From a virus: 21,316 nt of DNA. The translations under genes were made by a program, and so were the position numbers. Under the pieces are notes generated by a model. The model was not told the origin of the DNA. It did no database searches and saw only the letters and a list, made by a program, of their open reading frames with translations. Every line of letters starts with the position of its first letter. The first letter of the stretch is position 1. The DNA lies in IMG/VR virus record IMGVR_UViG_3300046005_001844, positions 1 through 21,316 of that record, one strand, 5' to 3'. Shown piece by piece: positions 198-19,866 of this stretch.

Positions 198-215
198 TAA
201 GTAATCAATGACTTA
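198..215. repeat. Intergenic 18-bp dyad, copy A
   Basis: TAAGTAATCAATGACTTA lies between the lysozyme stop and the ATG of the gene at the left edge. It is one of six related imperfect palindromes in the intergenic gaps of this window. On the minus strand it is followed directly by TATAAA, a -10-like hexamer, and then by the AAGGA ribosome binding site of the next gene. Binding site or promoter element is inference. Confidence 0.7.
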
Positions 216-222
216 CTAATAG

Positions 223-666
223 TCATGGTTTTAAAAATAACGCTTTTTCTTGCGCCCGTCTAAATGTTAAGCCATTGCAAACTTCTTTCTTGCCATCTAC
301 GGTAATCTTATTCCAAACATCAAACTGTGATGCCGCCTGATCTAGTAGACCAGCGTTAAGTTTTTTCAATAAAGTGGAGGTTGAAAAGGCAGTTATGCCG
401 ATGTTAAATACAAATACCACTAACGCACTGAATTGGTTCTCAGTCAGTGAATAGGTAACTTTAGAGTTAATACAGTCGATTGCTTTTTTACAATCCTTGA
501 TAAGCAATTCTTGACCCTGAGCTGGAGTAATAACATTAAACTTATCACCCTGTTCTTTAACGTGACCCCAACCAATCGTCATTTTTTTTGCTGGACACAA
601 ATACCATACTGCCGAATAGGATTCTTTCGACTTCAGTAGCTTTATACCTTCTTCGTTTATATTCAA
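223..666 (-). CDS. Endolysin, GH24 (T4-type) lysozyme
   Basis: A 147-residue muramidase that hydrolyses the peptidoglycan glycan backbone at host lysis. Numbered from the chosen start, the family pattern is clear: NINEEGIKLLK, then E15 (general acid), C24 in LCPA, and T30 in the MTIGWGH segment. The +9 and +15 spacing is that of the T4 lysozyme catalytic E/D/T triad, with Cys in the Asp position as in many phage endolysins. Later conserved stretches are FNIGITAFSTSTLLKKLN and, at the C-terminus, NGLTFRRAQE. I start it at TTG 666-664, which overlaps the upstream TGA as TTGA and has AGGA 8 nt before it. A longer reading from 747 would run through the upstream gene and add Cys-rich residues with no family match. 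No signal or signal-anchor segment is visible, so export should depend on a holin. Confidence 0.93.
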   Translation of the reverse strand: MNINEEGIKLLKSKESYSAVWYLCPAKKMTIGWGHVKEQGDKFNVITPAQGQELLIKDCKKAIDCINSKVTYSLTENQFSALVVFVFNIGITAFSTSTLLKKLNAGLLDQAASQFDVWNKITVDGKKEVCNGLTFRRAQEKALFLKP

Positions 667-905
667 TTGAATTTTCCTGTAGCAATGGCAATACCCACAC
701 CAACCAAACTTATGATGCCTGAAATAATAAAAACAACACCAGACCAAAAACCTTTTTGTTTACTTTGAGCGTCCAATATTGAGTTTAATTTGCTAAAAAT
801 CTCTTTCATTATCGCTGACGCTTCCAACTTATCTTCCGTTAGCTCACGACAAAGCCCATCGACACGTTGTTCTAACTTAGCTACCCTGCAATTTAAGTCA
901 CTCAT
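663..905 (-). CDS. XhlA/holin-like small membrane protein
   Basis: An 80-residue protein with a charged, heptad-like N-terminal half (about residues 1-48, including VAKLEQRVDGL and IFSKLNSIL) that looks like a coiled coil. One strongly hydrophobic segment (about 54-75, WSGVVFIISGIISLVGVGIA) sits near the C-terminus. This layout resembles XhlA-type hemolysin/holin accessory proteins found in phage lysis cassettes. The ATG at 905-903 overlaps the Rz stop as ATGA and has GGGA upstream; an earlier start at 947 would only extend it into the Rz gene. It ends in the TTGA overlap with the lysozyme gene, so the two are probably translationally coupled. It could instead be a second holin, an antiholin or an unrelated membrane-anchored coiled coil. 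Confidence 0.8.
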   Translation of the reverse strand: MSDLNCRVAKLEQRVDGLCRELTEDKLEASAIMKEIFSKLNSILDAQSKQKGFWSGVVFIISGIISLVGVGIAIATGKFN

Positions 906-1381
906 TTTGCTATCCCGCAATTTTTCTCGACCACAAAAGTAAAACATTCTTTAGCGTAAGCACTTACGGCATCGGCTCTATAACTGGAGTCTTTGAAAAA
1001 TCGATCAGCGCCTTCTGAAAGCTCGACGTATCCGGTTTCTGCTTTAGCGACTCCGGCACCACTATTTGTTGACACGGTGTTTGAACAACCTTTCCCACTT
1101 GTTGGGACATGCAACCTTGAAGTGTTAAGCAGGTCATGATAAGTATTAGCAGTTTGTATGGCTGACTCATGCGCTTTATCCAAATTATTGTTAATGATGA
1201 TGGCTTCAGCTTGTGCAGTTTGAACATGATTTACAGCCACCGCTAATTGAGCCGTCGCTTCTGAGTTCTGCTTTTGCAAAGCCATTTCAACCTGTAGCAA
1301 CTCACTTTTATCAATTTGATGCGAGATGAAGTAACCTGATGAAAATGCGCTGATAGCGACACCCAAGATTAAATACAACAT
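902..1381 (-). CDS. Rz: Inner-membrane spanin (i-spanin), Rz-like
   Basis: A 159-residue protein with an N-terminal membrane segment (MLYLILGVAISAFSSGYFI, residues 1-19) followed by a long polar, Ala/Gln-rich helical region (about 25-90) expected to be periplasmic coiled coil. This is the i-spanin plan; with Rz1 it disrupts the outer membrane in the last step of Gram-negative lysis. The identification is strengthened by a lipoprotein gene (Rz1-like) lying wholly inside it in another frame. The C-terminal part contains the YVELSEGADRFFKD and YAKECF segments seen in Rz/DUF2514-type proteins. The ATG overlaps the upstream holin-candidate stop as TAATG, with GGTGA about 8 nt before it. In this phage the spanins come before the lysozyme, not after it as in lambda. 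Confidence 0.88.
   Translation of the reverse strand: MLYLILGVAISAFSSGYFISHQIDKSELLQVEMALQKQNSEATAQLAVAVNHVQTAQAEAIIINNNLDKAHESAIQTANTYHDLLNTSRLHVPTSGKGCSNTVSTNSGAGVAKAETGYVELSEGADRFFKDSSYRADAVSAYAKECFTFVVEKNCGIAK
964..1170 (-). CDS. Rz1: Outer-membrane spanin lipoprotein (o-spanin), Rz1-like, nested in Rz
   Basis: A 68-residue lipoprotein encoded entirely within the Rz gene in a different frame. From the chosen ATG (1170-1168) it reads MSQPYKLLILIMTCLTLQGC: positive charge, hydrophobic stretch, then the lipobox LQGC with the lipidated Cys at residue 20. The mature part is short and contains several prolines (TPCQQIVVPESL near its start, PVIEPMP at the end), as in o-spanins. A longer reading from 1227 would put 19 basic and hydrophobic residues before the signal peptide and is less likely. 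The ribosome binding site is weak (GGAT about 10 nt upstream). The fully embedded arrangement is the one known for lambda Rz1. Confidence 0.88.
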   Translation of the reverse strand: MSQPYKLLILIMTCLTLQGCMSQQVGKVVQTPCQQIVVPESLKQKPDTSSFQKALIDFSKTPVIEPMP

Positions 1382-1554
1382 TAATCTTTCACCGCAAAGC
1401 CCATTAAGCCGACTAATGTTGCCGAACCTGCAATAACACTCTGAGCGGCTTCGGTATCGCCTTTAAAATACAAAACTAATGAGGCGATGCCAGCAATCAT
1501 AAAGATTAACCCACGCTTGGTTGACGCTTGCTTCCAATCTATTTCTATTTTCAT
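1381..1554 (-). CDS. Holin candidate, small two-segment membrane protein
   Basis: A 57-residue protein starting MKIEIDWKQASTKRG, followed by two hydrophobic stretches (about residues 16-32 and 38-55: GLIFMIAGIASLVLYF and AAQSVIAGSATLVGLMGFAV) separated by a short polar loop (KGDTE). Such short two-segment proteins with an 'IDWKKAT.RG' start are common next to phage endolysins and are usually called holins. It is the first gene of the lysis block. GGAG lies 6 nt before the ATG at 1554-1552, so I prefer this start to the ATG at 1578, which lies inside an intergenic dyad and lacks a comparable site. Holin function is inferred from size, topology and position. Confidence 0.8.
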   Translation of the reverse strand: MKIEIDWKQASTKRGLIFMIAGIASLVLYFKGDTEAAQSVIAGSATLVGLMGFAVKD

Positions 1555-1570
1555 CTCGCGCTCCATTTGA

Positions 1571-1588
1571 TAAGTCATTACTTACTTA
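1571..1588. repeat. Intergenic 18-bp dyad, copy B
   Basis: TAAGTCATTACTTACTTA sits in the 99-nt gap between the phosphoesterase and the holin candidate, just downstream (minus strand) of a sigma70-like promoter candidate whose start point would fall near 1594. An operator position is therefore plausible, though untested. It is the same family as the dyads at 198, 2968, 13629, 17687 and 19849. Confidence 0.7.
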
Positions 1589-1600
1589 TTATTAGGAACA

Positions 1601-1629
1601 ATCATAACAGGTGAAAATTCATAAGTCCA
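1601..1629 (-). promoter_or_regulatory. Candidate sigma70-type promoter before the lysis cassette
   Basis: On the minus strand TGGACT (1629-1624, 4 of 6 matches to TTGACA) is followed after 17 nt by TATGAT (1606-1601, 5 of 6 matches to TATAAT). The predicted start point is just upstream of dyad B and the holin-candidate gene. It lies in the longest intergenic gap of the window (1555-1653), a sensible place for separate lysis transcription. Hexamers this good occur by chance in AT-rich DNA, so confidence is modest. Confidence 0.4.
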
Positions 1630-1653
1630 TGTTTTTGTGATATAAGTTTTCAA

Positions 1654-2946
1654 TCACTCGGCATCTTGACGGTGATACCATTTACCACCAGCAACAGCAA
1701 AATCAGTAATTGGAATATAATCAAAGTTGGTAGCCTTAGTTTGCGTATCCACATTGATTAAAGCAAAACCGTTATGCCACTTCTCCCCTTCCGTATAAGA
1801 CGCTTCTCTTTTGTGTCCGGCACCCAATTGATGCCACTCATAGGGTCCAAAAATAGGATTATAGGTAGACCAAATCTCATGACGGTGGTGATGACCATTA
1901 ACCCCTGGCATACCCATGTGTCGTGCATGAGGAAAGTGGTGACACATCACTGTATCCCAATAGACTTTATAATTCTTAGCCAGTTCTTTATTGAACTCTG
2001 TTTTAGAGAATGTACCTAAATCAGACTTGGCGATATAGTTAATCTCAAACTGATCCAGTCCTAAAAGCTTGGCGACTGTAAAGCCATGCAGATCAGAAAG
2101 CACCGCTCTTAATGCAGGTGTGGCATCGGCTAACTGTCTAATCAATCGTGCTTCATGATTGCCCTCTACAAAGTCAAACTGAGCATTAGGACAAGCTTCT
2201 CTCAGCGGTGCAAAGATTTCATCGTGGACAAACTTAATGCGTGACACCACATCCCACTCTCTAGGGTCGACACCGTACTTACCGAACTCCGCGAGGTCGA
2301 AGATGTCGCCGACAAAGCAAATAGCATCAGGCTGAACACGTTCCGCTACATCAATCAATACGCGTAGGTAGAAGCGGTCTATCTCAATGTCATGTAAATC
2401 CGAACAGGTCAATACCGTCTTGAAGCGATTGCTATTCTCTCTAATGTATTGAGTACCCCAATCCTGACGCTCATTAAGCTGTCTGTAGTGATCCACACTG
2501 ACATGTTTTGCAATATTGCGCTCATGTGCGTGTTGATAGCGAGAGAGCTTTAAACCTGCTTGTCGTTTGAATTCGTCGAAGGTACCGAAGTAGCGATTCC
2601 AAGTTGATTCTGAAATGCTAGAGTGATTCCTGAAGAAGTTGCGGCTAACAATTTGCTCCACATCTATTTCAGCAATGCGCTTTAATTCGGCAATACATTC
2701 TTCCGCACCCCAATGTTCCATAAACTTAGAAACATCTTCAGACAGAGGTACTTCGGTATGATTAGCACGAACAATTAACTTTTGAGCGTTGGGGTCTGTT
2801 TTGGCAATACCACGCAGAAAACCTGCTTTGTTGGTTACCGTCTTGATGCTAATGTCTAACACTTTGGCTATATCTGCCATCGTTGGGTAATTGCTAACAT
2901 CGTTATAGATACTAATGAATTCGGATACATCGACTACTTTAGCCAT
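1654..2946 (-). CDS. Calcineurin-like metallophosphoesterase with DNA-binding-like N-terminus
   Basis: A 430-residue protein. The C-terminal two thirds carry the metallophosphoesterase metal-ligand motifs in order: SDLHD (D183, H185), GDIFD (D214), GNHEAR (N263, H264), CHHFPH (H336/H337) and GHHHRH (352-356). It should therefore be a two-metal phosphoesterase. The substrate cannot be read from sequence; nucleic acid, nucleotide or phosphoprotein are all possible. The N-terminus has a helix-turn-helix-like stretch (about 20-46, TMADIAKVLDISIKTVTNKA). A second module (about 80-132) ends STWNRYFGTFDEFKRQAGL and resembles the HNH-endonuclease-associated repeat, so DNA targeting is likely. The start has AAGG 5 nt upstream. 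It stands alone between two dyad-bearing gaps, between tail-tip and lysis genes, an unusual place for an enzyme. Confidence 0.9.
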   Translation of the reverse strand: MAKVVDVSEFISIYNDVSNYPTMADIAKVLDISIKTVTNKAGFLRGIAKTDPNAQKLIVRANHTEVPLSEDVSKFMEHWGAEECIAELKRIAEIDVEQIVSRNFFRNHSSISESTWNRYFGTFDEFKRQAGLKLSRYQHAHERNIAKHVSVDHYRQLNERQDWGTQYIRENSNRFKTVLTCSDLHDIEIDRFYLRVLIDVAERVQPDAICFVGDIFDLAEFGKYGVDPREWDVVSRIKFVHDEIFAPLREACPNAQFDFVEGNHEARLIRQLADATPALRAVLSDLHGFTVAKLLGLDQFEINYIAKSDLGTFSKTEFNKELAKNYKVYWDTVMCHHFPHARHMGMPGVNGHHHRHEIWSTYNPIFGPYEWHQLGAGHKREASYTEGEKWHNGFALINVDTQTKATNFDYIPITDFAVAGGKWYHRQDAE

Positions 2947-2967
2947 AAAAGCCTTATGGGTTTATTA

Positions 2968-2985
2968 TAAGTCATTAGTGACTTA
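2968..2985. repeat. Intergenic 18-bp dyad, copy C
   Basis: TAAGTCATTAGTGACTTA has 7-bp perfect arms (TAAGTCA/TGACTTA) around TTAG. It begins right after the stop codon of the 172-residue protein gene and precedes the phosphoesterase ATG. On the minus strand its last bases run into a perfect -10-like TATAAT (2969-2964), but there is no good -35 at 17-18 nt. Confidence 0.75.
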
Positions 2986-3504
2986 TTAAATTAACTGCAA
3001 ATTGCCTATAAAAAGGGTTGTTGTAGACTCTATACCTGAAACTGAAATGGCTGACTCTATGCTTACTTTAGCCGCATTGGCGAAATCTCTTACCGCATCT
3101 ATGTAAGAGTGCATGGTGGTTTTAGCGGTTTCATCAGATTCACGTTCAATGTTGAGCTGACGGTAGATAGGATACGCATCTAATATTTTCATAGACGCAA
3201 GCCCATTAATTGTATTTGTATGTTCTACCTTTTTTGTCTCTAAATATCCTTCAGGCTCTTGCCACATTAAAGTAGTCACATCAAATACATAATCATCATT
3301 GGGGCTTTTAGAGTGCTTAACCCACTCATTCGTATAGTGCCATTGAGTATAGAATTCTTCGTCAGATATATTTTCCGTTAGTTTATTTGGGGAAATTGCA
3401 ATACAGCCACCGTAATCAACATTTTCTTCATAAACGGGCGTTATGGTCAACACTATTGAGTGAACACACCTTGTTTTTGAATTTATTAATATTGCTTTAT
3501 TCAT
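2986..3504 (-). CDS. Putative tail-fibre assembly or minor tail-tip protein
   Basis: A 172-residue protein beginning MNKAILINSKTRCVHSIV. A middle region contains FDVTTLMWQEPEGY, and a C-terminal segment carries YPIYRQLNIERESDE, then MHSYIDAVRDFANAAKV. 'KAILINSKT..V.NIV' starts and 'YP.YRQLN' C-terminal segments recur in small proteins just downstream of phage fibre or J genes, some acting as fibre-assembly factors. I cannot assign this one to a family with certainty. The ATG at 3504-3502 follows the upstream stop by 7 nt and has AGGA close upstream. An upstream ATG at 3582 would overlap the previous gene by about 70 nt and adds residues with no such match, so I reject it. Confidence 0.75.
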   Translation of the reverse strand: MNKAILINSKTRCVHSIVLTITPVYEENVDYGGCIAISPNKLTENISDEEFYTQWHYTNEWVKHSKSPNDDYVFDVTTLMWQEPEGYLETKKVEHTNTINGLASMKILDAYPIYRQLNIERESDETAKTTMHSYIDAVRDFANAAKVSIESAISVSGIESTTTLFIGNLQLI

Positions 3505-3511
3505 GTTGTTC

Positions 3512-4327: not shown

Positions 4328-4716
4328 TAAATACCATCCCCATAAATAACTAATAATCTATCGTTATACCAAGGTGAATGTGTTGTATTTTGATCCCCAA
4401 CCCAAACACTTATTGTATCTCCTGATACAGACCAATCAATATTATCTTCGTATTTATAACTGCTTGGTCCATAAAACAAACCCGTAGCTACGCCATTAGT
4501 CCGCATGACTCTTCTTATATCAAATTTATAATTATTTGCAGTTAATCCTGCATAAGATGCTGAAACAACCCACGCATTAAAAGCACCTGGGTTTTTAGCA
4601 ACCCAAGCGCCTGTATTTTTAAGCAATGGTATCATTGCAACAACTCTCATTTGGCTACCATCTTGATGAAATCTAGTTATACCATTACCATCTTTAACTT
4701 TAATTCCATAACTCAT
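4327..4716 (-). CDS. Small tail-tip-associated protein, smaller paralogue
   Basis: A 129-residue protein starting MSYGIKVKDGNGITRFHQDG, followed by a beta-rich body with several Trp and Tyr residues (WVAKNPGAFNAWVVSASYAG, later TISVWVGDQN). It shares the N-terminal 'M-x-YG-[IF]-x-[VI]-K-[DN]' pattern with the 271-residue neighbour, suggesting two variants of one attachment module with different outer parts. Its ATG overlaps the J stop codon as ATGA, so it is translationally tied to J. Function is unknown; by position a tip or fibre accessory protein is most likely. Confidence 0.78.
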   Translation of the reverse strand: MSYGIKVKDGNGITRFHQDGSQMRVVAMIPLLKNTGAWVAKNPGAFNAWVVSASYAGLTANNYKFDIRRVMRTNGVATGLFYGPSSYKYEDNIDWSVSGDTISVWVGDQNTTHSPWYNDRLLVIYGDGI

Positions 4717-7700
4717 GCTAAATTACCTAATCTCACCCTTAAATGCCCAGATGAATCATAAACTCTTATGCTATTAGCATCCATTATCATGCCTGGGGAA
4801 GTTACCGCTCCAAAGGAATAACTACCCGTCAGGGCAATGGAGCCTATTTGAGCCGACTGTATAGCAGCGGGTCCTATATATGTGCTGATATTAGCTTGTG
4901 TCATTTGCGGAACAGCCCACGCCACGCCCTGTATGCCTTGCGGACCAGCGGGTCCTGTTGCCCCTTGAATTAAACTCCAAGCATAGTCAGCAGCAACGAC
5001 CGACTCAGTTGCGGTGGTTTTGTTAAACGCTAATCCTATATAAGTCATTCCTGTGGGGCTGTCGTTTAAACCAGCTCCAGCGGCAGAAGTTCCATACTTA
5101 ACCCAAGTATAAGTATTTGTTCCAGCTAGACCATTAATACCATCAGTTCCTTTGATTAAACTCCAGTTATAATCTGTATAAACAGTAGACTCAGTGATAA
5201 CAGTTTTATTATAAGCAATACCCATATAGGTTTTGCCAGCAGGTAAATCTGACATGCCTGTTGTTGGGGTGTCTGCATACTTAAGCCAAGTATAGAGATT
5301 GGTACCATTAGTACCATTAGTACCATTAGTTCCCGCTGAACCAGTTAAACCTGTTGCTCCAGTTGCTCCAGTTGCCCCTTGAATTAAACTCCAAGCATAG
5401 TCGGTAGTAATGACCGACTCAGTTGCAGTGGTTTTGTTGAATGCCAACCCAATATATGTATTACCAGTAGGGCTATCGCTAATGCCTGCGCCTAATGCAG
5501 AAGTTCCATACTTAACCCAAGTATAAGTATTTGTTCCAGCTAGACCATTAATACCATCAGTGCCTTTGATTAAACTCCAATCATAATCTGTGTAGATGGT
5601 TGACTCGGTGGCAACAGTTTTATTATAAGCAATACCCATATAGGTTTTGCCGGCAGGTAAATCAGACATACCTGTTGTAGTGGTGTCTGCGTATTTAAGC
5701 CAAGTATAAAGAGTGGCGCCATTAGTACCATTAGTGCCAGGAGAACCAGTTAAACCAGTTGCTCCAGTTGCCCCTTGAATTAAACTCCAAGCATAGTCAG
5801 CAGCAACGACTGATTCAGTTGCGGTGGTTTTGTTAAACGCTAATCCTATATAAGTCATTCCCGCAGGATTGTCATTAATTCCAGCGCCCACTGCTGAAGT
5901 GCCGTACTTAACCCAAGTAAAAGTATTAGTCCCATCGACACCCGCTATGCCATCAGTTCCTTTGATTAAACTCCAGTTATAATCTGTATAAACAGTAGAC
6001 TCTGTTGCTGTGGCTTTATTATAAGCAACCCCCATATAAGTTTTACCCGTAGGTAAATCTGACATACCTGTTGTAGCTGTGTCAGCATACTTCAACCAAG
6101 TATAAAGAGTGGCGCCATTGGTTCCATTAGTGCCAGGAGAACCATTAATCCCGTTACTACCATTTGCTCCTTTAACTGTGTATAAAGTCCAATAATCGGT
6201 TGCGTTAGCCCCACCGACAGAGTAAACAGGAACAAGTATTCCGGTAGTAGTTGTTAGACTTGATGTATGAGTTAATTTGCAAGACCAGCCATAGCCCAAC
6301 GTATCAAGAACAATATCTCCCGAAGCGTAAAGTGTATTTGTAGTCCAATTACCTCTATAAACGTTTCGAGTAGCACCATCTGCCGGTTTATTTGTGCCGC
6401 CAATATTTGACCAATCTAACGCATTACCTGATGCTAAAATAATATTACCAGCAGAATCTCTAATGCTTAATCCACGACTATCTATCTTGTCAGCGGTAAT
6501 CTTAGTGATATATGCGTTATTGATATAAACGCCAGCAGGAAATACGCTACCATCAATCGTAGTGGGTGTTGTCAATACTGAAAAGGGTACAATAGGTGCG
6601 GATGCTCCTGGTCCAGCGGGATTAGCTATTGAAAACTTATCTGCTCTAATGGCAAACGATGATGTAGTAACACCATTTGTGGTGTCACTTGCTAAACCAA
6701 AGCCAGACACATAACCATTGGCATCAATCTTAACCGTATAACTGGCATTCAAACCGCTGATGTTGGTTTGCGCCGCAACTAATGCCTGATTTGACGCTCC
6801 TGGAGCATTTCTACCAACAGCTAGCCAGTCAATACTAAAGCTATCACCTGATGCCGTTGTGCTACCAATATCTAATCGTAACTGTGTTACTGGATTGATT
6901 GCAGTTGTCGCCATCCACGCAGTCACATCTTTCAAGTTGAACTCAAGAAGTGCGCTACCGCCTATAACATTGAATCCAGCAGGGATGGTTATCGTCTTTG
7001 CCAATAGCCAACCACCTGTTGTTTTATAATATAGTGACCCAGCCCAGCCAGTTGTTCCCGCCAATCTATTAACTTTAGCTTTAATGATTGGATAAGTGCC
7101 TCCAACAATGGCTAACCCTGCTGGTGAAATTAACTGTGGATTTGCAGCCGTTGATGTGATTGTTACTGAACCAGTGTTTACCCACGTTAAGGTTGCATTA
7201 ACAGCCGTCCAACTTTCGACTGTTGTTGTGTAATACCATGTTTGAAATTGGTCAAAGCTACCTTCAGCTAGACTGAGACGGGTACCTAGCTCTGCGTTTA
7301 AAGCGGAAGAGCCTAACATGCCGTTAAGCGTTGTTACCATCGCTCCCGCTTCATCTAAAGTGGATGCTGTTACATACAGTGATTGCAATGATTCGTTACC
7401 CGAAGTATCGACTGTTTTTATCCAGAAGTAATACGGTGTAGAGGCGAAGTTAAGACCTGCAACCAAATAGTTATCAGCCCTTATTGAGGTTAATAGTGTT
7501 GCAGATGCTTCTACACTACTTGTTGCGCTCCAGCGAATATTGACACGATCAAAATCAATGTCCATATCTGCTGGGTATGTCCATCGCAATTGTATAGAGC
7601 GAATTAACGATACCGCTGTGAAGGTAGCAACAGCTTTAGGGGGTATAGACTTTCCAGCTATTGTCAGAGTTGCCGTAATAGGTGTTGTTAAAACACCTAA

Positions 7701-10313
7701 TAAATCCTGACCGGACACCTTAACATCTAAAATATCAGCTTCAGCCAACCCTTCTATATCAAATACAGGCACACTTACTTGTTGAACTACCCAGTTACCA
7801 GCTCCAGAAGTTTTAGTAACGCGGTAAGATACATTATAAAGTGAAGCTATCCCCTCCCACGAAACATGAACTTTACTACCAATAATACCAGGGGCAATGA
7901 AATAGGTACTTTCTTCTAAATGCAAATTGGTTAGAACCGTCACATAAGGTGGTGTTATGGATGTTTTTGGTTTTTCTAGCAGCAACCCAGATTCAATTGC
8001 GCCGAATTTACTCGGGTTATGTTCAACTGCTGTGACGGTAAACAAATCAGCATGTTTACCGTCTTGAGCTACAGAAAGCACTCGCGCCAGCATGGGTACA
8101 ACTTCGTCACTTAATACAAATAAAGCATTATCTATAGGGAGTGTTGTTAGTGCGGTCGTCCATGTTAGTATAGAAAATGAACCCGTTGTTTGCTGAATTA
8201 CACGCTGTACAAATGAACCATCCGGCATTGCAAGAAAGATCGATACTGAGGGTACAGCACTAGCGCCTAAACCAAGCGATAGAGTAACAGGTGCATCTAA
8301 AGTTACCGAAGTTGATGATGACGATAAGATACGTCCACCTGCTCTCTTTCCCACTTTAAAGGCATCACTAATTCTTATTATTTCACCAGGAAATAACAAC
8401 GATGAGTCCAATCCCACGTTAAAGGTAATAATGTTAGATTCATACTTTTCCGTGTAAAGTATCCATCGACCAACTCGCTGTGCTTGTCCACGACTAGAGC
8501 AACCAAAAGCGATTGTATCAAGCTTCTTAATACCCATAGAAGAGTTAACTAAGTCATGATCCTCAACGTACTCAACACGCTGTTTATAATTATAATCAGG
8601 GTCATTCCATGTGACGTTGACAACACTATGACGATCTTTTCTGGATGAACTGGCATAGCTAAACTCACCATTAACCACGTTAGCTTGGTTGAATACCATC
8701 GAAGGCGTTGCTGGCGAATCTTGCCTAAAGCAAACCATTCCGCCACTCCAGTATGCCATGCCTCTAAATACAGAGGTGATATCAGAGATAATCTTATAAG
8801 CTTCTGCTTGTGTTTGAATTTGCGTATTGATTGAAAAACGTGGCTCATAACCGCCAAATCCATCACTAACTGACTCATCACAATATTTACCAATGGTGTA
8901 CAGCATTGACTTGTCAACTTGTGAAGAGCTTAGATAATTACCAAGTCCGTAGCGTGTGTTGGTTAATAGATCATAAAGTATCCATGCTGGATTGCTTGAT
9001 ATAGCAGTAGTGAACCCACCATTCCATATACCTGTATAAACACCTGTTGACTTACCATCACCTGCTATAGCTATATTGTTAGGCACTTGTATATATAAAC
9101 CATTAACAAGGTAAGCGCGTTGTGGCACACTTGAAAATACGGTAGGGTCTAAACCAATTGTAACAAGTGCAGAGTTTGGGTAATTTAATTTGGTATCTGT
9201 TAACTCAACATAACTATCCAAAAATATTTTATTCATAATGGAGGCGGTCGTACTATCTGCAGTTCGCCTACTAACTCTTATAACATAACCAGTGGTGGCG
9301 GAGGGCAATGTCAACACTGTACTTCTTTGGTATTTGGATTTAGTTTTTCCTTTAATAGTGATGTCATCCCCAACAGGCGTAAACACACCACCATCTACCG
9401 CTATTTCATAGTAATATGACACCTCACTACCGTTAATATCCCCCGTAGTCATATTTTGCGAAGACAAAGCCGCAACACTGACAATAATGCGAACACGATC
9501 AACATTTAAATTGGTAATTGAAAATGTTTTTGAAGATAGCGTTGTTATTTCAACATTCGCCATATTATAAGGTGTTTCAACGCTTGCAAAATCAGGAACT
9601 ATATCTTGATTAGGGCTACCATCTCTTGAGTCGAAAGAAGTGGAGTCAAAATTGTACTGACCTGACTCACTTAGTAGCGCAACATTATTTAAGAAAATAG
9701 ACTCAGCGCCATTAACTAAACCCCCTATCTTGCCCTCGCCAATCAAATCAATAATTGCTATTTTAGATCTGGATTGCAGCGTATCAGATGCCTCTACAGC
9801 TTGTCTTGCGCCGCCGCCGCCGCCTTTTGCGCCGCCGCCGCCGGAACCTGTTATAACAGGGAAGCGATCTCTGTGACCACCATTATGAACGCGAATACCA
9901 TCAGCTATAAAAGTGTGATAAGGCTCTACAGTTAGATTGTAAACAACCTCTCTGCCAATAATCTCTTTGCTTTTAATAGGCAGTAAATGACCCATGCCGC
10001 TAACAACGGTATCGTGTCCTACAACTAGGTTTTGTATCTCGGCAAACGCATTGTACTGATTTAAAACCCAGTGATTAGGTGTGATGAAAATCTCACCATC
10101 CCAAAATTTGACCCGCATAATGGGTTGTGGGTCTAAATGCACATGGTGTTTAATAACTTTAGCAAGATGAAGATCGCCTCTTTCATCAAACGCTAAAACA
10201 CTGTCGCCCTCTTTGATAAGCTCAATGGCAATTGTCTTACCGTCTTCTAACTGAACTTGGGTACCCGCTCTAAAACAACCACCACCTGCACCAACTATTT
10301 TATCTTTAGCCAT
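4713..10313 (-). CDS. J: Tip attachment / host-specificity protein J with N-terminal Hint domain and C-terminal repeats
   Basis: A 1866-residue central tail-tip protein (lambda J is about 1130). Order: a Gly-rich start; Hint domain C13-N144; a Gly-rich linker; then the usual J beginning (SRSKIAIIDLIGEGKIGGLV, about 181-200) and the conserved J core to about 790. Next come fibronectin-like beta domains (about 800-990), a beta-sandwich (about 1010-1170), a DUF1983-like part (about 1180-1290, with NGYVSGFGLAS and TSSFAIRADKFSIANP) and a chitin-binding-like GNW..NTLYASGDIV segment (about 1318-1380). Three long repeats (1404-1796) follow, and the end is lambda-J-like (SSGHLRVRLGNLA). Its ATG overlaps the stop of I as TAATG, with AGGGG upstream. 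It should set host range and contact the receptor. The repeats and the Hint domain explain most of the extra length. Confidence 0.95.
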   Translation of the reverse strand: MAKDKIVGAGGGCFRAGTQVQLEDGKTIAIELIKEGDSVLAFDERGDLHLAKVIKHHVHLDPQPIMRVKFWDGEIFITPNHWVLNQYNAFAEIQNLVVGHDTVVSGMGHLLPIKSKEIIGREVVYNLTVEPYHTFIADGIRVHNGGHRDRFPVITGSGGGGAKGGGGGARQAVEASDTLQSRSKIAIIDLIGEGKIGGLVNGAESIFLNNVALLSESGQYNFDSTSFDSRDGSPNQDIVPDFASVETPYNMANVEITTLSSKTFSITNLNVDRVRIIVSVAALSSQNMTTGDINGSEVSYYYEIAVDGGVFTPVGDDITIKGKTKSKYQRSTVLTLPSATTGYVIRVSRRTADSTTASIMNKIFLDSYVELTDTKLNYPNSALVTIGLDPTVFSSVPQRAYLVNGLYIQVPNNIAIAGDGKSTGVYTGIWNGGFTTAISSNPAWILYDLLTNTRYGLGNYLSSSQVDKSMLYTIGKYCDESVSDGFGGYEPRFSINTQIQTQAEAYKIISDITSVFRGMAYWSGGMVCFRQDSPATPSMVFNQANVVNGEFSYASSSRKDRHSVVNVTWNDPDYNYKQRVEYVEDHDLVNSSMGIKKLDTIAFGCSSRGQAQRVGRWILYTEKYESNIITFNVGLDSSLLFPGEIIRISDAFKVGKRAGGRILSSSSTSVTLDAPVTLSLGLGASAVPSVSIFLAMPDGSFVQRVIQQTTGSFSILTWTTALTTLPIDNALFVLSDEVVPMLARVLSVAQDGKHADLFTVTAVEHNPSKFGAIESGLLLEKPKTSITPPYVTVLTNLHLEESTYFIAPGIIGSKVHVSWEGIASLYNVSYRVTKTSGAGNWVVQQVSVPVFDIEGLAEADILDVKVSGQDLLGVLTTPITATLTIAGKSIPPKAVATFTAVSLIRSIQLRWTYPADMDIDFDRVNIRWSATSSVEASATLLTSIRADNYLVAGLNFASTPYYFWIKTVDTSGNESLQSLYVTASTLDEAGAMVTTLNGMLGSSALNAELGTRLSLAEGSFDQFQTWYYTTTVESWTAVNATLTWVNTGSVTITSTAANPQLISPAGLAIVGGTYPIIKAKVNRLAGTTGWAGSLYYKTTGGWLLAKTITIPAGFNVIGGSALLEFNLKDVTAWMATTAINPVTQLRLDIGSTTASGDSFSIDWLAVGRNAPGASNQALVAAQTNISGLNASYTVKIDANGYVSGFGLASDTTNGVTTSSFAIRADKFSIANPAGPGASAPIVPFSVLTTPTTIDGSVFPAGVYINNAYITKITADKIDSRGLSIRDSAGNIILASGNALDWSNIGGTNKPADGATRNVYRGNWTTNTLYASGDIVLDTLGYGWSCKLTHTSSLTTTTGILVPVYSVGGANATDYWTLYTVKGANGSNGINGSPGTNGTNGATLYTWLKYADTATTGMSDLPTGKTYMGVAYNKATATESTVYTDYNWSLIKGTDGIAGVDGTNTFTWVKYGTSAVGAGINDNPAGMTYIGLAFNKTTATESVVAADYAWSLIQGATGATGLTGSPGTNGTNGATLYTWLKYADTTTTGMSDLPAGKTYMGIAYNKTVATESTIYTDYDWSLIKGTDGINGLAGTNTYTWVKYGTSALGAGISDSPTGNTYIGLAFNKTTATESVITTDYAWSLIQGATGATGATGLTGSAGTNGTNGTNGTNLYTWLKYADTPTTGMSDLPAGKTYMGIAYNKTVITESTVYTDYNWSLIKGTDGINGLAGTNTYTWVKYGTSAAGAGLNDSPTGMTYIGLAFNKTTATESVVAADYAWSLIQGATGPAGPQGIQGVAWAVPQMTQANISTYIGPAAIQSAQIGSIALTGSYSFGAVTSPGMIMDANSIRVYDSSGHLRVRLGNLA
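4926..5294 (-). repeat. J C-terminal repeat, unit III
   Basis: Residues about 1674-1796 of J. The unit contains an A half (YTWLKYADT..TGMSDLPAGK ... WSLIKGTDG) and a B half (YTWVKYGTS..GAG.NDSPTG ... WSLIQGATG), then GPAGPQGIQG collagen-like triplets leading into the conserved J end. It is the last and shortest of three tandem units. Its DNA shares long near-identical blocks with units I and II. Confidence 0.9.
5295..5708 (-). repeat. J C-terminal repeat, unit II
   Basis: Residues about 1536-1673 of J (138 residues). It has the same A half/B half build as the other units, then the longest Gly-x-Y linker of the set (GATGATGATGLTGSAG and GTN triplets). The linker DNA contains short tandem repeats, a likely source of length variation. 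Confidence 0.9.
5302..5328 (-). repeat. Three tandem 9-bp repeats coding Gly-Thr-Asn triplets
   Basis: The plus strand shows gtaccatta three times in succession (5302-5310, 5311-5319, 5320-5328), coding part of the GTNGTNGTN run at the end of J repeat unit II. The unit length is a multiple of three, so slippage would change linker length without breaking the frame. Confidence 0.85.
5709..6104 (-). repeat. J C-terminal repeat, unit I
   Basis: Residues 1404-1535 of J (132 residues, 396 nt). The A half starts YTWLKYADTATTGMSDLPTG and the B half starts FTWVKYGTSAVGAG; each half is about 50 residues, and GLTGSPGTNGTNG linker triplets close the unit. It is preceded by a further collagen-like run (KGANGSNGINGSPGTNG). 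Confidence 0.9.
9882..10277 (-). other. Hint (intein-like) autoprocessing domain inside J
   Basis: Codes J residues C13-N144 (132 residues, no endonuclease insert). Block A: CFRAGTQV, then IELIKEGDSVLAFDERG. Block B: FITPNHWVL with T78 and H81. C-terminal block: YNLTVEPYHTFIADG then RVHN, with the terminal His-Asn pair H143-N144. The next residue is Gly145, not Cys, Ser or Thr, as in A-type bacterial intein-like domains. Both borders are Gly-rich (GAGGG before C13, GG after N144), and the usual J N-terminus follows only after about residue 180. The catalytic residues look intact. Whether the outcome is splicing, N-terminal cleavage or C-terminal cleavage cannot be read from sequence. Confidence 0.93.
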
Positions 10314-13628: not shown

Positions 13629-13646
13629 TAAGTAAGTGGTTAGTTA
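13629..13646. repeat. Intergenic 18-bp dyad, copy D (degenerate)
   Basis: TAAGTAAGTGGTTAGTTA, a weaker match to the dyad seen in five other gaps: the left arm TAAGTAA is intact and the right arm is GTTAGTTA in place of KACTTA. It lies right before the M start in the 67-nt gap after the tape measure gene. Confidence 0.5.
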
Positions 13647-13652
13647 TTACAT

Positions 13653-13681
13653 AGAGTACCCAATTAAAGCATAATAGTCAA
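13653..13681 (-). promoter_or_regulatory. Weak candidate promoter between tape measure and M
   Basis: On the minus strand TTGACT (13681-13676, 5 of 6) is followed after 17 nt by TACTCT (13658-13653, 3 of 6). The predicted start point falls at the edge of dyad D, the same promoter-then-dyad order as at the lysis gap. The -10 is poor, so this is only a candidate. Confidence 0.25.
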
Positions 13682-13690
13682 CAAGTTATA

Positions 13691-17005: not shown

Positions 17006-17018
17006 AACTATTCCCTAT

Positions 17019-17656
17019 TTATAAACTATTCATTAATGATTCCATTGCGCTACTATCAAAGACTTCATCAAAGCGTGTCACTTTGCCAATTTCAGTTGAT
17101 AACATATCAATTTTCTCTTGCATTCCTTCTGTGCTATTTACGGCGGCAGTGACGCTTAAAAGCCTCATATCATGCTCTGCAAATAATCGGTTTATGTTTG
17201 CGCTCATCAGCCAAAATGCGCGTATCGGTAATTCCATCACCTCGCGATACGACATACTATATTCTTTGGATACGCGACAAAAAAGGAAGCCAAAATCGAC
17301 TTCCCTGAGTTGTCCGTTATCTACTTTTTTTCAGTCTCACCTTCAGCGGCAATAGCTATCGCCTCCTCGTCATCACCCCGTACAAACGTGGCGATTTTTC
17401 CCAGTGAGATAAGCGGCATCGTTTTAAGTGTCGCGCTATTAATAGTTGGAACAGCTAAAACGATTAAGGCGATAGTCAGTTCTATTTGACTAGCAACATC
17501 ATCCTCTGCTTTAGCTTGAAGGTCTTTAACCAATTTGGTCGCTTCAATGAAGCTTTCAACAGTCTGCTCAATAATGGCGTGTTCTACACCTTGAAGCTTT
17601 AAAAAGCGATTGGGCGTTGTTGCAAGTTCATCTAGGTTCAAATATTTAACGGTCAT
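17019..17656 (-). CDS. Tail assembly chaperone GT, -1 frameshift fusion
   Basis: Predicted 212-residue product read from the G start through codon AAG at 17326-17324, then shifting -1 (next codon 17324-17322) and running to the stop at 17019. The -1 frame is open from the slip site and joins the downstream reading frame without a break. The bridging residues read VDNGQLREVDFGFLFCRVSK, then EYSMSYREVMELPIRAFWLM, matching the T part of siphophage chaperones ('DFGF.F..VSKE...S'). The ATG at 17255 lies inside this motif, and a protein starting there would lose conserved residues, so independent initiation is unlikely. By analogy with lambda G/GT it helps polymerise the tube around the tape measure and is absent from the mature virion. 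Confidence 0.9.
17321..17656 (-). CDS. G: Tail assembly chaperone G
   Basis: A 111-residue protein in the standard position between major tail protein and tape measure. It is acidic at the C-terminus (DDEEAIAIAAEGETEKK), with helical segments KYLNLDELATTPNRFLKL and AIIEQTVESFIEATKLVKD. In lambda-type phages this chaperone binds tube and tape-measure subunits and is partly extended by frameshifting; here the last three codons GAA AAA AAG hold the slip site. Ribosome binding is modest (AGAGAA upstream). The 52-nt gap before it carries dyad E. Confidence 0.88.
   Translation of the reverse strand: MTVKYLNLDELATTPNRFLKLQGVEHAIIEQTVESFIEATKLVKDLQAKAEDDVASQIELTIALIVLAVPTINSATLKTMPLISLGKIATFVRGDDEEAIAIAAEGETEKK
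17324..17330 (-). promoter_or_regulatory. Programmed -1 ribosomal frameshift site A AAA AAG
   Basis: Zero frame reads GAA AAA AAG TAG, so the heptamer A AAA AAG sits in the correct phase directly before the G stop codon. This is the most slippery heptamer known in E. coli (used in dnaX). An SD-like AAGGTGAG lies 5-13 nt upstream, also as in dnaX. A GGAAGTC/GGCTTCC hairpin (7-bp stem with one G-U pair, 6-nt loop, 17285-17304) lies 19 nt downstream, rather far for a stimulator. Confidence 0.9.
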
Positions 17657-17686
17657 AAAGTATTCTCTGTTGATATTAAGATTAAA

Positions 17687-17704
17687 TAAGTAACTAATTA
17701 CTTA
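17687..17704. repeat. Intergenic 18-bp dyad, copy E
   Basis: TAAGTAACTAATTACTTA has perfect 7-bp arms (TAAGTAA/TTACTTA) around CTAA. It lies in the 52-nt gap between the major tail protein and chaperone G, closely following the tail protein stop. As RNA the arms could form a small AU-rich hairpin, so attenuation or processing is an alternative to protein binding. Confidence 0.75.
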
Positions 17705-17708
17705 CTAA

Positions 17709-18590
17709 TTAAACCGCGCGTTTGTCACCAATTTTGAACAAAGTGCTATCCGTATCAGGGTAAGCATTAAATTCAACATTGAATACACGCTCAGCATCAA
17801 ACTTGTAAGCGAAGTTCAAAGCACCAGCAGTCGCTGTTTTTGGCAAAATAACATCTTGTGAGTAATCGTTATCAGCCGCAGACATTGGATGGAGCACCAA
17901 TTCTTGAGAAATTGCCAATAGAGAGACGCCAATATTACGAGTTACGTCAACACGTTCTTTAGTTGCATTAACACCACCAGTTAGTGTGGCTGCTGATACC
18001 GCCGGAGCTGTTGCTGATTTCGCCAATGTAAAAGCATTACCCGCTGTGCCGCGTAAACCAGAAACTACATTGATAATTAAACCAGTTGTATCTAGCGTGT
18101 AATCACTGTCATCAACAAAAGCATTAGTTGACGATTGTAGTGCCAGCGCCAAATTACTAGCGGTATTTTGTACGGCTGTTTTAGTTGGGTTGATTGTTGC
18201 GACACCAATAGCAATATCTGTTAAAGCTGTTGCAGTTACCGCTGTTTTAAAAGTAAACACCACACCATTAACCGTAATGGTATCTCCTGCTGCTGGGGCG
18301 ACTGTAAATGTAATACTACCCGCCGCCTTAACACCATCGGTTTTTAAGACCGCACCAGGCATTACCTTAATAATGTGATCCAAAGTTGACTCAGCTAAGG
18401 GCAGAGTTACTTTTGCGCTTCGACCCATGATAATCTCATCAATTTCTGAGTTACCATATTGGTCAACCATTACTTTGTGAGTTTCTGTTGTTACAGCGAA
18501 ATCAACACCACCTTTAGTGTAACCGACATCGATTCCACCAAATCTGACGCGACATACGCCTAATTTTACGTTCTGAGTATTACTTGCCAT
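17709..18590 (-). CDS. Major tail (tube) protein with inserted beta domain
   Basis: A 293-residue protein in the lambda V position. The flanking parts look like a siphophage tube protein: residues 1-85 (KLGVCRVRFGGIDVGYTKGG, DEIIMGRSAKVTLPLAEST) and 210-293 (VDVTRNIGVSLLAISQELVL, AYKFDAERVFNVEFNAYPDT). Between them, about residues 88-208, an extra domain reads SITFTVAPAAGDTITVNGVV, then ANLALALQSS and GNAFTLAKSA, ending ATLTGGVN. This 'PA.GDT.TVNG..F.F' pattern is found as an add-on domain in various phage virion proteins and would project from the tube surface. A strong AAAGGAG lies 9 nt before the ATG, fitting high expression. Confidence 0.92.
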   Translation of the reverse strand: MASNTQNVKLGVCRVRFGGIDVGYTKGGVDFAVTTETHKVMVDQYGNSEIDEIIMGRSAKVTLPLAESTLDHIIKVMPGAVLKTDGVKAAGSITFTVAPAAGDTITVNGVVFTFKTAVTATALTDIAIGVATINPTKTAVQNTASNLALALQSSTNAFVDDSDYTLDTTGLIINVVSGLRGTAGNAFTLAKSATAPAVSAATLTGGVNATKERVDVTRNIGVSLLAISQELVLHPMSAADNDYSQDVILPKTATAGALNFAYKFDAERVFNVEFNAYPDTDSTLFKIGDKRAV

Positions 18591-18616
18591 GTTAAATTGC
18601 TCCTTTGCAAAGATTA

Positions 18617-18991
18617 TTAAATTTTGGCATATACCGCATCGAAATTGACACTGTATTCTATGTTATTGCCATCCGTTGCCGGATACACAATGGGATCACT
18701 CTTAGGTAAGATGTACTTCACATCTAACCCATTTATTACCTTGCCCTGTATTGTCAATAAAGGGATAATTGAGTTTATTAAGGTGTCATCGTAATTAGCT
18801 TCACGCACAATGACTTGAAACCCACCTCGTCTAACGCCTTTCAGTTCATGATCGATCAGATCACCACTCATTCTGTTTAGTAGCAACACACCGATAGCGG
18901 TGTCGTAAGGCATCGAGTGAATGAATAAATCTGTTCCTAGTGAACCGATATTATTAGCCTCGAGTATCATCGCCATCTCTTTTAAGATCAC
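18617..18991 (-). CDS. Tail terminator-like protein (lambda U position)
   Basis: A 124-residue protein: a helical N-terminal part (ILKEMAMILEANNIGSLGTD), LFIHSMPYDTAIGVLLLNR, GGFQVIVREANYDDTLINSI, and a YSVNFDAVYAKI end. Proteins of this kind, often named 'minor capsid protein from bacteriophage', sit before the tube gene and act as the terminator that stops tube growth and forms the tail side of the neck. The start is GTG 18991-18989, overlapping the upstream stop as GTGA with AGGAG 7 nt before it. Family assignment comes from the mixed pattern and synteny. Confidence 0.8.
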   Translation of the reverse strand: MILKEMAMILEANNIGSLGTDLFIHSMPYDTAIGVLLLNRMSGDLIDHELKGVRRGGFQVIVREANYDDTLINSIIPLLTIQGKVINGLDVKYILPKSDPIVYPATDGNNIEYSVNFDAVYAKI

Positions 18992-19479
18992 ACCACTCTC
19001 CTGACTTTAGCTCTTATCTTTTCAACAATATGTGAGTCAACTTCTACCTTTGCTCGCTCCATATACTTTCTACCAGGATCGCCACCAGCCGCCCGTTTTG
19101 CCATGTTGCCTTCTCGACTACTGTTGTAGCGATCACTCTCTTCCATGATGACTGAATAGCCCTTAATGTTAACCATTGCACCTGTTTCTTCGTCGGCTAC
19201 TTCGTCTGCGACAAATACTGTTACCTTGTAAGGCATATATTGACCCGTTGCTGGATTTCTTACTGATCGAGTTACGCCCTTTTCATGCGCGTTGGTTCTA
19301 CCAATGGCGTTTTCAAGATTGTAGCGATCAACAGGTGCGTTTTGCTTAGCTAACATCACCATTTCATCAGCCGACTCATCCATCTGATCTAAGGTCGCGC
19401 GATAAGCTCTATCACCATCTTGTTCGATCATGGCTTTTATTGCCGCAAATTGTGCGTTAACGTCAGTTTTAAGTGCCAT
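18988..19479 (-). CDS. HK97 gp10-like tail completion protein (lambda Z position)
   Basis: A 163-residue, basic, mostly helical protein. Its N-terminal helix (YRATLDQMDESADEMVMLAK) leads into QNAPVDRYNLENAIGR, the 'A-x-x-AP..TG.L..SI' type motif of HK97 gp10-like proteins. Beta strands follow (YKVTVFVADE, YSVIMEES), then a basic C-terminal helix (GRKYMERAKVEVDSHIVEKI). These proteins join head and tail. Its ATG lies within the previous gene (11-nt overlap), and its stop overlaps the next start as GTGA. An insert with a poorly recognised VADEETGAMVNIKG stretch makes it somewhat longer than the usual ~120-140 residues. Confidence 0.85.
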   Translation of the reverse strand: MALKTDVNAQFAAIKAMIEQDGDRAYRATLDQMDESADEMVMLAKQNAPVDRYNLENAIGRTNAHEKGVTRSVRNPATGQYMPYKVTVFVADEVADEETGAMVNIKGYSVIMEESDRYNSSREGNMAKRAAGGDPGRKYMERAKVEVDSHIVEKIRAKVRRVV

Positions 19480-19816
19480 ATATCTTTAAACTCACCTGAT
19501 AATGGTCAATCACTCCATTAATGTGATTCATCTTTTGCTCTATTGACTCTATCGATAAAATAATACCGCCCACATTAACTAGATCGTTTATTTTGATCTT
19601 GGTACTGGGGGTGAATAACAGTGTTGAATTAGAAGTCATTTCAGCCGCATTACCAATCGAAGCACTTCTTGAATTATTTTGGTTGGTTGGCGTTGCTGCA
19701 TTGGCTAATTTTATAACCGCGCACAGGGTCGCAACGCGGGAACCAAATATCGGTTTACCGTTTTCATCAGCCCCAATTCTAGGCGATATAACACAGGGTA
19801 TTGTCGGAAATATCAT
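19469..19816 (-). CDS. Head closure / stopper-like protein
   Basis: A 115-residue protein just upstream of the gp10-like gene. It is beta-rich, with GADENGKPIFGSRVATLCAV early, a KIKINDLVNVGGIILSIESI segment (the 'D.v.v.g..y.V..i' pattern of head-closure or stopper proteins) and a DHYQVSLKIYG end. In related phages the stopper seals the portal before tail joining. I start it at ATG 19816-19814; an in-frame TTG two codons upstream is possible, and neither has a strong ribosome binding site. The assignment relies on position and a loose fold pattern. Confidence 0.72.
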   Translation of the reverse strand: MIFPTIPCVISPRIGADENGKPIFGSRVATLCAVIKLANAATPTNQNNSRSASIGNAAEMTSNSTLLFTPSTKIKINDLVNVGGIILSIESIEQKMNHINGVIDHYQVSLKIYGT

Positions 19817-19848
19817 ACACAAATTCTATCAGTGATTAGCCATAAAAG

Positions 19849-19866
19849 GAAGTCATTGGTTACTTA
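19849..19866. repeat. Intergenic 18-bp dyad, copy F
   Basis: GAAGTCATTGGTTACTTA overlaps the stop codon of the 252-residue protein gene and extends into the 36-nt gap before the head-closure-like gene. It is a good match to the other copies apart from the first base and a G in the centre. Confidence 0.65.

Follow-up and report, generated by a model that had tools for sequence, protein, structure and literature searches.

What is the role of the six short mirror-image DNA sites that lie between the late genes of the phage represented by IMG/VR record IMGVR_UViG_3300046005_001844 (positions 1 to 21,316, a stretch of 21,316 nucleotides referred to below as the window)? The original prediction held that a family of 18-bp dyads occupies every sizeable intergenic gap of this fragment and had not been noticed inside genes, and proposed that the dyads are sites of a phage-encoded regulator (comparable to L5 stoperators), promoter elements, or RNA hairpins. 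The analysis described here confirmed that the dyads are present, intergenic, and far more frequent than expected by chance, and supported the proposed interpretations only in part. The six sites belong to a set of roughly 14 to 32 similar sites found across the genomes of a large family of phages related to phage-plasmids, and they are probably (with an estimated probability of about 0.8) the operators of a single phage repressor that keeps the dormant phage silent, although binding and repression are inferred.

All six dyads were found at the predicted positions. The predicted consensus, with up to 3 mismatches allowed, gave 13 strand-matches in the window against 0.26 expected (the largest number in 100 shuffled sequences was 4). 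The pattern TMAGTMA-N4-TKACTKA with at most 1 mismatch gave six sites, none of which is inside a gene although 88% of the window is gene interior (P = 3e-6; no site in 10 Markov simulations), so that chance or base composition can be rejected as an explanation. In a census of gaps based on gene starts that were partly a matter of choice, gaps of 36, 39, 39, 52, 67, and 99 nt hold one dyad each, gaps of 13 and 26 nt hold none, and the one sizeable gap without a dyad is the 65-nt gap at 17256-17320, between the phrog_893 and phrog_1131 genes, which corresponds to the frameshift region that had been set aside in the original prediction. With an automatic ORF caller, dyads are found in 5 of 6 gaps of 36-300 nt and in 1 of 8 short gaps. 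However, the occupation of every sizeable gap is a property of this fragment and does not carry over to its relatives: in 11 relatives, 26-62% of the co-directional 36-300 nt gaps hold a dyad with up to 2 mismatches. A megablast search of the window against phages returned nothing.

All six dyads are given here on the minus strand. The dyad at 198..215 (TAAGTCATTGATTACTTA on the transcript strand) is located between the endolysin gene (223-675) and the gene that runs off the left end of the window. The dyad at 1571..1588 (TAAGTAAGTAATGACTTA) lies upstream of a 65-aa ORF and contains one of its possible starts; it has a promoter-like match (score 8.9) with a -10 box, TATGAT, that begins 18 nt upstream of the dyad. 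The dyad at 2968..2985 (TAAGTCACTAATGACTTA), upstream of the metallophosphoesterase (MPP) gene, is overlapped at its downstream end by a possible -10 box, TATAAT, at 2964..2969 (minus strand; score 7.1), with a poor -35 box (TTTAAT, 15-bp spacer). The weakest copy, at 13629..13646 (TAACTAACCACTTACTTA), has 3 mismatches to the predicted consensus and is found 5 nt before the start of the minor tail gene (phrog_14); just upstream of it, at 13653..13681 (minus strand), is the promoter-like TTGACT-N17-TACTCT, the best-scoring promoter near a window dyad (score 9.3). The dyad at 17687..17704 (TAAGTAATTAGTTACTTA) lies upstream of the phrog_893 gene (17321-17656), and the dyad at 19849..19866 (TAAGTAACCAATGACTTC), which departs from the pattern at its outer base, overlaps the stop codon of the gene at 19853-20644 and lies upstream of the phrog_911 gene; neither of these two has a promoter score of 7 or more.

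Loss of the dyad in relatives that conserve the neighboring sequence, which had been named beforehand as evidence against the prediction, was observed for two sites and not for three. A dyad is present in 1 of 14 homologous gaps for the site at 2968 and in 1 of 14 for the site at 19849, but in 4 of 4 for the site at 198, 15 of 18 for that at 13629, and 9 of 12 for that at 17687, whereas no homologs of the gene downstream of the site at 1571 were found. The single homolog with a dyad at the 2968 position is the near-identical contig L011, in which the dyad is identical (2 of 19 when all homologs are counted rather than only those alignable from the N-terminus). These rows include one record twice (L018 is part of G008, a dyad-bearing fragment) and some near-copies (L014, L015, and L016). 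A first count extrapolated the gene starts from partial matches; restricting it to matches that begin in the first 30 residues changed the MPP count from 1 of 19 to 1 of 14 and that of the Ig gene from 15 of 18 to 15 of 17. Single sites turn over while the regulon persists.

The motif TMAGTMA-N4-TKACTKA with up to 1 mismatch occurs 14-32 times, mostly between genes, in 12 further records of 64-115 kb, which include environmental phages, an Acinetobacter phage-plasmid (A. baumannii p107.0, with 27 sites), and Rhizobium phage RHEph10; a Klebsiella phage-plasmid (record W02) has a diverged version. In the window and 13 records that encode a particular helix-turn-helix (HTH) protein (see below), 272 of 329 sites lie outside gene interiors, as delineated by a simple ORF caller, although 78-88% of each record is gene interior, and Markov simulations gave a mean of at most 0.5 sites per record, with a highest single value of 3 (W02 was scanned with a relaxed pattern). 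The simulations were preferred to a reversed-pattern control, which was not informative for A. baumannii p107.0 (27 sites against 24 in the control), probably because TCAGTCA-N4-TGACTGA also fits the reversed pattern at a shift. A motif-blind search for gapped palindromes returned AGTCA-type words as the commonest between genes in records W01, G001, G005, G007, and G004, whereas none was among the 14 commonest words of nickie, ANB28, or record G003. The relatives that lack the HTH protein, nickie, ANB28, and BUCTxx99, have no dyads at up to 1 mismatch.

Sigma-70-like promoters are enriched at more than one position relative to the dyad, as would be expected for operators rather than for a fixed promoter element. 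Among 162 site-orientations (with divergent sites counted in both orientations and sites near contig ends left out), -10 boxes were found just before the dyad in 29 cases against 8.4 expected (standard deviation 2.9, maximum 16 in 100 flank shuffles), at its right end in 17 cases against 5.9 (maximum 16), and at +18..21 in 16 cases against 3.7 (maximum 11). The class with the -10 box at +32..39 is weak overall (33 against 21.2, maximum of the shuffles 32). These classes were defined after inspection of an initial promoter scan and tested largely on the same sites, and two added records taken alone are not significant (4 against 1.6 in W01 and 2 against 1.1 in W03 for the class upstream of the dyad). 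An unexpected property of the dyads is their polarity: the half that faces the incoming RNA polymerase is better conserved, with the downstream half worse in 188 and the upstream half worse in 44 of 324 sites. The bias remains (154 against 39) when sites that overlap the upstream stop codon are left out, and has the same direction in all promoter classes, although with P = 0.06 in the class of "other" sites. Both half-sites are nevertheless conserved, as seen in oriented profiles from which 35 convergent and 15 divergent sites of 187 were left out.

The best candidate for the cognate regulator is a Cro/CI-type (XRE, HTH_3-like) protein of about 120-155 residues. Pfam and PHROG scans of 81 proteins of G001 as one alignment did not name individual members, and the HTH protein was identified by scanning ten proteins encoded in the mixed-strand regions of that record. 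By tblastn, it was found in all four near-complete records that had been reached by tail or metallophosphoesterase homology and bore dyads (G001, G004, G005, and G007). Of 38 HTH loci in IMG/VR, 37 contain a dyad in the stretch examined (up to 10 kb on each side), with 103 sites in about 636 kb against 6 sites in 1.02 Mb of 71 other tail-gene loci; several of the 38 loci are near-duplicates, some overlap G001, G004, G005, and G007, and the control loci (L021-L091) include L032, which may itself belong to the group. Of 141 ORFs of G005, the HTH gene is the only one found in all 11 other HTH-positive records tested and absent from nickie and ANB28. However, nine of the 13 HTH-positive records were chosen because they carry the HTH gene, so its presence in 11 of 11 is partly built in, and the independent part of this observation is that these records have dyads. 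A sigma-70 region-2 protein and seven other ORFs are also absent from nickie and ANB28, but each is present in only 8 of the 11 HTH-positive records.

In G001, G004, G005, and G007, the HTH gene lies next to a CobT-like gene (named by synteny with annotated records), with dyads on one or both sides, and in 7 of 13 HTH-positive records an integrase or replication gene lies beside it. The G001 copy matched HTH_3 with 26.7 bits, above the curated cutoff of 23; of four other copies scanned, those from A. baumannii and L186 (partial) hit HTH families below the cutoff, and those from G007 and Klebsiella hit none. L186 comes from the same metagenome as the near-identical contig L011 and is a candidate piece of the phage of the window. 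In a Foldseek comparison, HigA, 434 Cro, and P22 c2 were among the closest folds (target TM of 0.79-0.83 and E values of 0.004-0.013 for 434 Cro and P22 c2). The association is not without exceptions. Four dyad-bearing fragments of 19-37 kb (G002, G006, G008, and G009) show no HTH gene, which, being fragments, they need not; in the host genome G012, the HTH hit lies on a different contig from its dyads and has one in-frame TAG; and some HTH carriers have few exact dyads (1 in G020, 2 in G026, and 3 in the 216 kb of G025). Record L204 was left out of these comparisons.

Taken together, these data are best explained by dispersed operators of a master lysogeny repressor. In this view, a dimer of the HTH protein would read the two TMAGTMA half-sites separated by 4 bp and, in the lysogen (a phage-plasmid or an integrated prophage), would sit on some 14-32 operators spread over a genome of about 100 kb, including the late tail and lysis operons. 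Where the dyad overlaps a sigma-70 promoter, the repressor would block initiation; where it lies in a gap without an obvious promoter, it may act as a roadblock to polymerase reading through, as the polarity of the sites suggests. Dyads beside the repressor's own gene suggest autoregulation. The sites, their placement between genes, their phasing with promoters, their polarity, the lack of RNA covariation (see below), and the co-occurrence with the HTH gene were all observed directly, whereas binding of the HTH protein to the dyad, its dimerization, repression, and any block of elongation are inferred, as is the presence of the HTH gene in the phage of the window, a 21-kb tail-to-lysis fragment that does not include the respective region. 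The relatives of this phage include SSU5/AB-type elements that combine phage and plasmid maintenance genes on one episome. A more far-reaching possibility, which at present must be regarded as doubtful, is that the dyads form a polar, genome-wide silencing system, in which one small Cro/CI-type repressor bound at oriented palindromes in operon gaps stops RNA polymerase in elongation as well as at promoters, and in which the same code, operator plus recognition helix, has been kept across phage-plasmids and related phages of Alpha- and Gammaproteobacteria and of unknown environmental hosts. This would be a stoperator system that evolved apart from that of mycobacteriophages, with a symmetric site made directional.

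Of the three roles put forward in the original prediction, that of sites for a phage-encoded regulator is well supported, whereas that of promoter elements is right only in that the dyads overlap promoters. An unlikely version of the latter is that the dyad binds a phage activator, as in the case of P1 Lpa or Mu C, and replaces the -35 box of late promoters. The window does hold late genes, and its site at 2968 is followed by TATAAT with a poor -35 box. However, sites of that class often also have a -35 box with a 17-bp spacer, other sites have the -10 box upstream of the dyad, where an activator could not act in the classical way, and dyads occur all over the genome and beside an HTH gene. 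Still less likely, and rejected for lack of pairing covariation in favor of DNA half-sites, is an RNA hairpin acting as a 5' stabilizer, processing site, or weak terminator: although the dyads lie on transcripts between genes and their 5' half is better conserved, unpaired arm combinations are as common as within-genome permutation predicts. For pair 1-16, which the search pattern leaves free, 184 of 324 sites are paired against a permuted mean of 183.7; pairs 2-15 and 3-14 pair less than permuted, but the limit of 2 mismatches in the search biases them in that direction; and only pair 5-12 is slightly above (264 against 255.7, P = 0.026). By the promoter scan, some dyads lie between the -35 and -10 boxes, where they would not be transcribed from that promoter.

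A similarly improbable alternative is that the dyads are dispersed partition or DNA-organizing (ParB/SopB-like) sites of a phage-plasmid. The sites are spread over the genome, some carriers have a ParA gene, and ParB_N proteins are conserved in the group, but the ParB_N protein (query G005_94139) is also present in nickie and ANB28, which have no dyads, and neither the phasing with promoters nor the polarity toward transcription is expected of centromeres. The sigma-70 region-2 protein was also considered as a potential binder, but is present in only 8 of the 11 HTH-positive records.

SSU5- and AB-type phage-plasmids are widespread and can carry resistance genes. Searches of open-access papers, directed mostly at phage-plasmid repressors and dispersed repressor sites (those consulted included PMC12977533 and PMC11652158), returned no paper that, judging by its title or the beginning of its abstract, treats this motif, the master repressor of these elements, or an SSU5/AB repressor-operator set; T4 PeaRL cassettes were not found either. 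A shared operator code and a named candidate repressor would make lysogeny, superinfection immunity, and induction of this superfamily directly testable. The polarity of a palindromic site is itself unexpected and raises the question of how a dimer on a dyad could distinguish the direction of transcription.

Dispersed repressor sites as such have been described in several phages. In mycobacteriophage L5 and other cluster A phages (PMC6550527, PMC9283540), 20-30 stoperators per genome lie in short intergenic spaces and promoters, oriented with transcription, and are served by one phage repressor with an N-terminal HTH and a proposed autoregulatory site near its gene. The dyads are similar in number (14-32 with at most 1 mismatch in the 11 HTH-positive records of 85-115 kb scanned with the standard pattern), in placement, and, in a weaker form, in orientation, but the L5 sites are 13-bp and asymmetric and are bound by a monomer with two DNA-binding domains, whereas these are 18-bp dyads with both half-sites conserved, for which elongation blocking is only suggested by polarity. 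Phage P1, which lives as a plasmid, carries 22 C1 operators that are dispersed over its genome and control lytic genes (PMC8546580), comparable to the 27 sites of the phage-plasmid A. baumannii p107.0; the P1 operators, however, are 17-bp and asymmetric (ATTGCTCTAATAAATTT) and differ from the dyad in sequence. The SPBRE elements of SPbeta (PMC10516654) were likewise first seen in silico in a prophage as a repeated intergenic element and later shown by ChAP-seq to be the sites of the master repressor MrpR, but their motif is 15-bp and MrpR has a tyrosine-recombinase fold, whereas the candidate regulator here is of the Cro/CI HTH type. Finally, P1 Lpa is a late-promoter activator (PMC8198154). 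The late-promoter dyads of Lpa and Mu C lie close to the -10 box, at one fixed place upstream of it and without a -35 box, whereas the dyads described here are found at more than one position, often with a -35 box.

The 21,316-base virus record that constitutes the window carries its main genes on the minus strand, coding for tail completion, tape measure and minor tail proteins, a long tip protein, a metallophosphoesterase, and a lysis cassette. The 1866-aa tip protein (4713-10313) begins with a stretch that, judged by eye from its translation, reads like a HINT (intein-type) domain and ends in collagen-like Gly-rich repeats. The six dyads of the original prediction are real, occur far above chance, and none of them lies inside a gene. 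The phrog_893 and phrog_1131 genes (17019-17656) look like a G/GT-type pair with a frameshift, and the 65-nt gap between them is the only sizeable gap in the window without a dyad.

The dyads belong to a genome-wide family. Relatives were found through the metallophosphoesterase and a minor tail protein, and four of these records, 96-112 kb in length (referred to as G001, G004, G005, and G007), each carry 14-30 copies. These copies avoid gene interiors, with 1 of 30 located inside genes in G001, 2 of 14 in G004, 5 of 25 in G005, and 0 of 16 in G007; over the window plus 13 records bearing the helix-turn-helix (HTH) gene discussed below, 57 of 329 sites are inside, although gene interiors were taken from a simple ORF caller that also admits false antisense ORFs. 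A motif-blind search for gapped palindromes between genes returned AGTCA-type words first in G001, G004, G005, G007, and the further record W01, whereas none were listed for phages nickie and ANB28 or for record G003. In Rhizobium phage RHEph10, the top word is of the AATCAA type, a diverged form. In the Klebsiella phage pJN2-26, an unrelated AAACAA-N1-TTGTTT palindrome comes first (9 of its 11 occurrences are outside gene interiors) and a GTAAGT-type word comes second. In G005, two dyads flank a promoter-like TTGACA..TATAGT sequence (104184-104247), and a similar dyad is found in G007 at 88560, next to a gene matching major capsid families.

Among homologues of the window's genes that could be aligned from within their first 30 residues, the homologous gaps retain a dyad in 4 of 4 cases for the site at 198, in 15 of 18 for the site at 13629, and in 9 of 12 for the site at 17687, but only in 1 of 14 for the site at 2968 (the single case being contig L011, which is nearly identical to part of the window) and in 1 of 14 for the site at 19849. 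The gap preceding the Ig-domain gene contains a dyad in 15 of 17 homologues, although not in the window itself, and for the other ten gene starts with homologues the figure is 3 of 97. Sites come and go at some gaps and stay at others, while the regulon stays.

Two alternative roles, as an RNA hairpin and as an activator site, can be weighed against these data. In the window, read on the transcript strand, positions 6 and 13 occur as C/G, A/T, C/T, and A/G, which already argued against an RNA stem. Over 324 oriented sites, the arms pair no more often than in within-genome permutations for six of the seven pairs, the exception being pair 5-12, which is slightly above (264 versus 255.7, P = 0.026); the limit of 2 mismatches in the search biases the other pairs, but pair 1-16 is free of that bias. 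In the first set of 137 sites, the frequent A/C choice in the left arm and the T/G choice in the right arm are independent of each other (76 paired, 70.8 expected, permutation P = 0.18). These patterns are those of DNA sites rather than of RNA.

With respect to promoters, a sigma-70 scan showed -10 boxes clustering at three places: just upstream of the dyad, at its right end (offset 16, with a -35 box 17 bp away), and about 33-38 nt downstream, in which case the right end of the dyad falls in the -35 box. Against 100 flank shuffles, the first two placements are clear (29 observed versus 8.4 for the former; 17 versus 5.9 and 16 versus 3.7 for the latter), whereas the third is weak (33 versus 21.2, with a maximum of 32 among the shuffles). 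It should be noted that these classes were defined on an overlapping set of sites and that the added records W01 and W03 alone are not significant. Variable overlap with promoter parts is what repressor operators show, while an activator site would keep one distance.

The dyads are also polar. The half-site on the upstream side, facing the incoming polymerase, is better conserved, with the upstream half being the worse one in 44 and the downstream half in 188 of 324 sites, and all 16 records other than the window lean that way (although record G024 does so only by 5 versus 6; in the window the counts are 1 versus 1). This asymmetry remains after removal of the sites that overlap the upstream stop codon (39 versus 154) and when only the core GTMA is considered (29 versus 87), and it points in the same direction in every promoter class and distance bin, the orientation of the sites being dependent on our ORF calls.

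The candidate regulator is a 139-residue HTH protein of G001, which scores above the cut-off for the HTH_3 family and has relatives in G004, G005, and G007 with 44-45% identity, encoded in each case next to the CobT-like gene and with dyads nearby. A tblastn search with the G007 copy detected this protein in 15 phage records (Rhizobium, Klebsiella) and in 728 plasmid records at an E-value of 0.01, including A. baumannii p107, where its gene is followed by an integrase gene and a ParA gene, and Klebsiella pJN2-26, where it is followed by an integrase gene; in RHEph10, it lies near a repC-type gene. Integrase genes are also located beside it in G001, G004, G005, and G019 (another HTH-bearing record), so that an integrase or replication gene is found beside it in 7 of 13 such records; for the other six, none of the five query proteins used gave a match beside it. 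The G001 record ends with a tyrosine integrase and a tRNA-Cys gene and therefore looks like an integrated prophage. The AlphaFold model of the HTH protein (mean pLDDT of 79) is closest to HigA, 434 Cro, and similar DNA-binding domains, including P22 c2, all at modest E-values.

In IMG/VR, 37 of 38 HTH loci hold a dyad, and dyads are present in all 13 HTH-bearing records scanned over their full length, the Klebsiella one in a diverged form (TARGTAAGTACTTACYTA). One of the contigs carrying the HTH gene, L186 (IMGVR_UViG_3300042549_009085), has two dyads 91 and 71 nt before the start of the match; it comes from the same metagenome as L011, which is 98% identical to part of the window, and is possibly another piece of the window's phage. 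Phages nickie, ANB28, and BUCTxx99 have neither the HTH gene nor the dyads at up to 1 mismatch. In the Stenotrophomonas phages ANB28 and BUCTxx99, the metallophosphoesterase match is in two pieces, and the BUCTxx99 gene is annotated as a LAGLIDADG homing endonuclease, suggesting an inserted element. Four dyad-bearing fragments (G002, G006, G008, and G009) show no HTH gene. Among eight host genomes reached through the metallophosphoesterase, only G012 has the HTH gene; this genome contains six exact dyads, five of them on one contig, but its HTH copy (G012:C5:52307-52702) is on another contig and reads through one in-frame TAG. Two other host genomes have one and two exact matches. A 1.18-Mb contig of Polynucleobacter sp. 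UK-Kesae-W10 (L198) carries a metallophosphoesterase 68% identical to that of the window, with no HTH gene in the genome and no dyads in the locus. Of 141 ORFs in G005, the HTH gene is the only one found in all 11 other HTH-bearing records tested and absent from nickie and ANB28; since most of those records were chosen through the HTH, this supports but does not prove the link.

The interpretation offered in the original prediction (sites of a phage-encoded regulator, promoter elements, or RNA hairpins) was partly supported, the first of these readings being the favored one. While the sites, their placement and polarity, and their co-occurrence with the HTH gene are observed in the sequences, binding and repression by the HTH protein are inferred. 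Most likely, the dyads are the sites of a master repressor of lysogeny acting at many operators, as P1 C1 does with 22 operators, L5 Rep with 20-30, and SPbeta MrpR at SPBRE. The polarity makes roadblocking of transcription elongation plausible but unproven; in L5, reversing the sites abolishes the repression of elongation. By its site shape or protein fold, the system described here is a member of none of these three.
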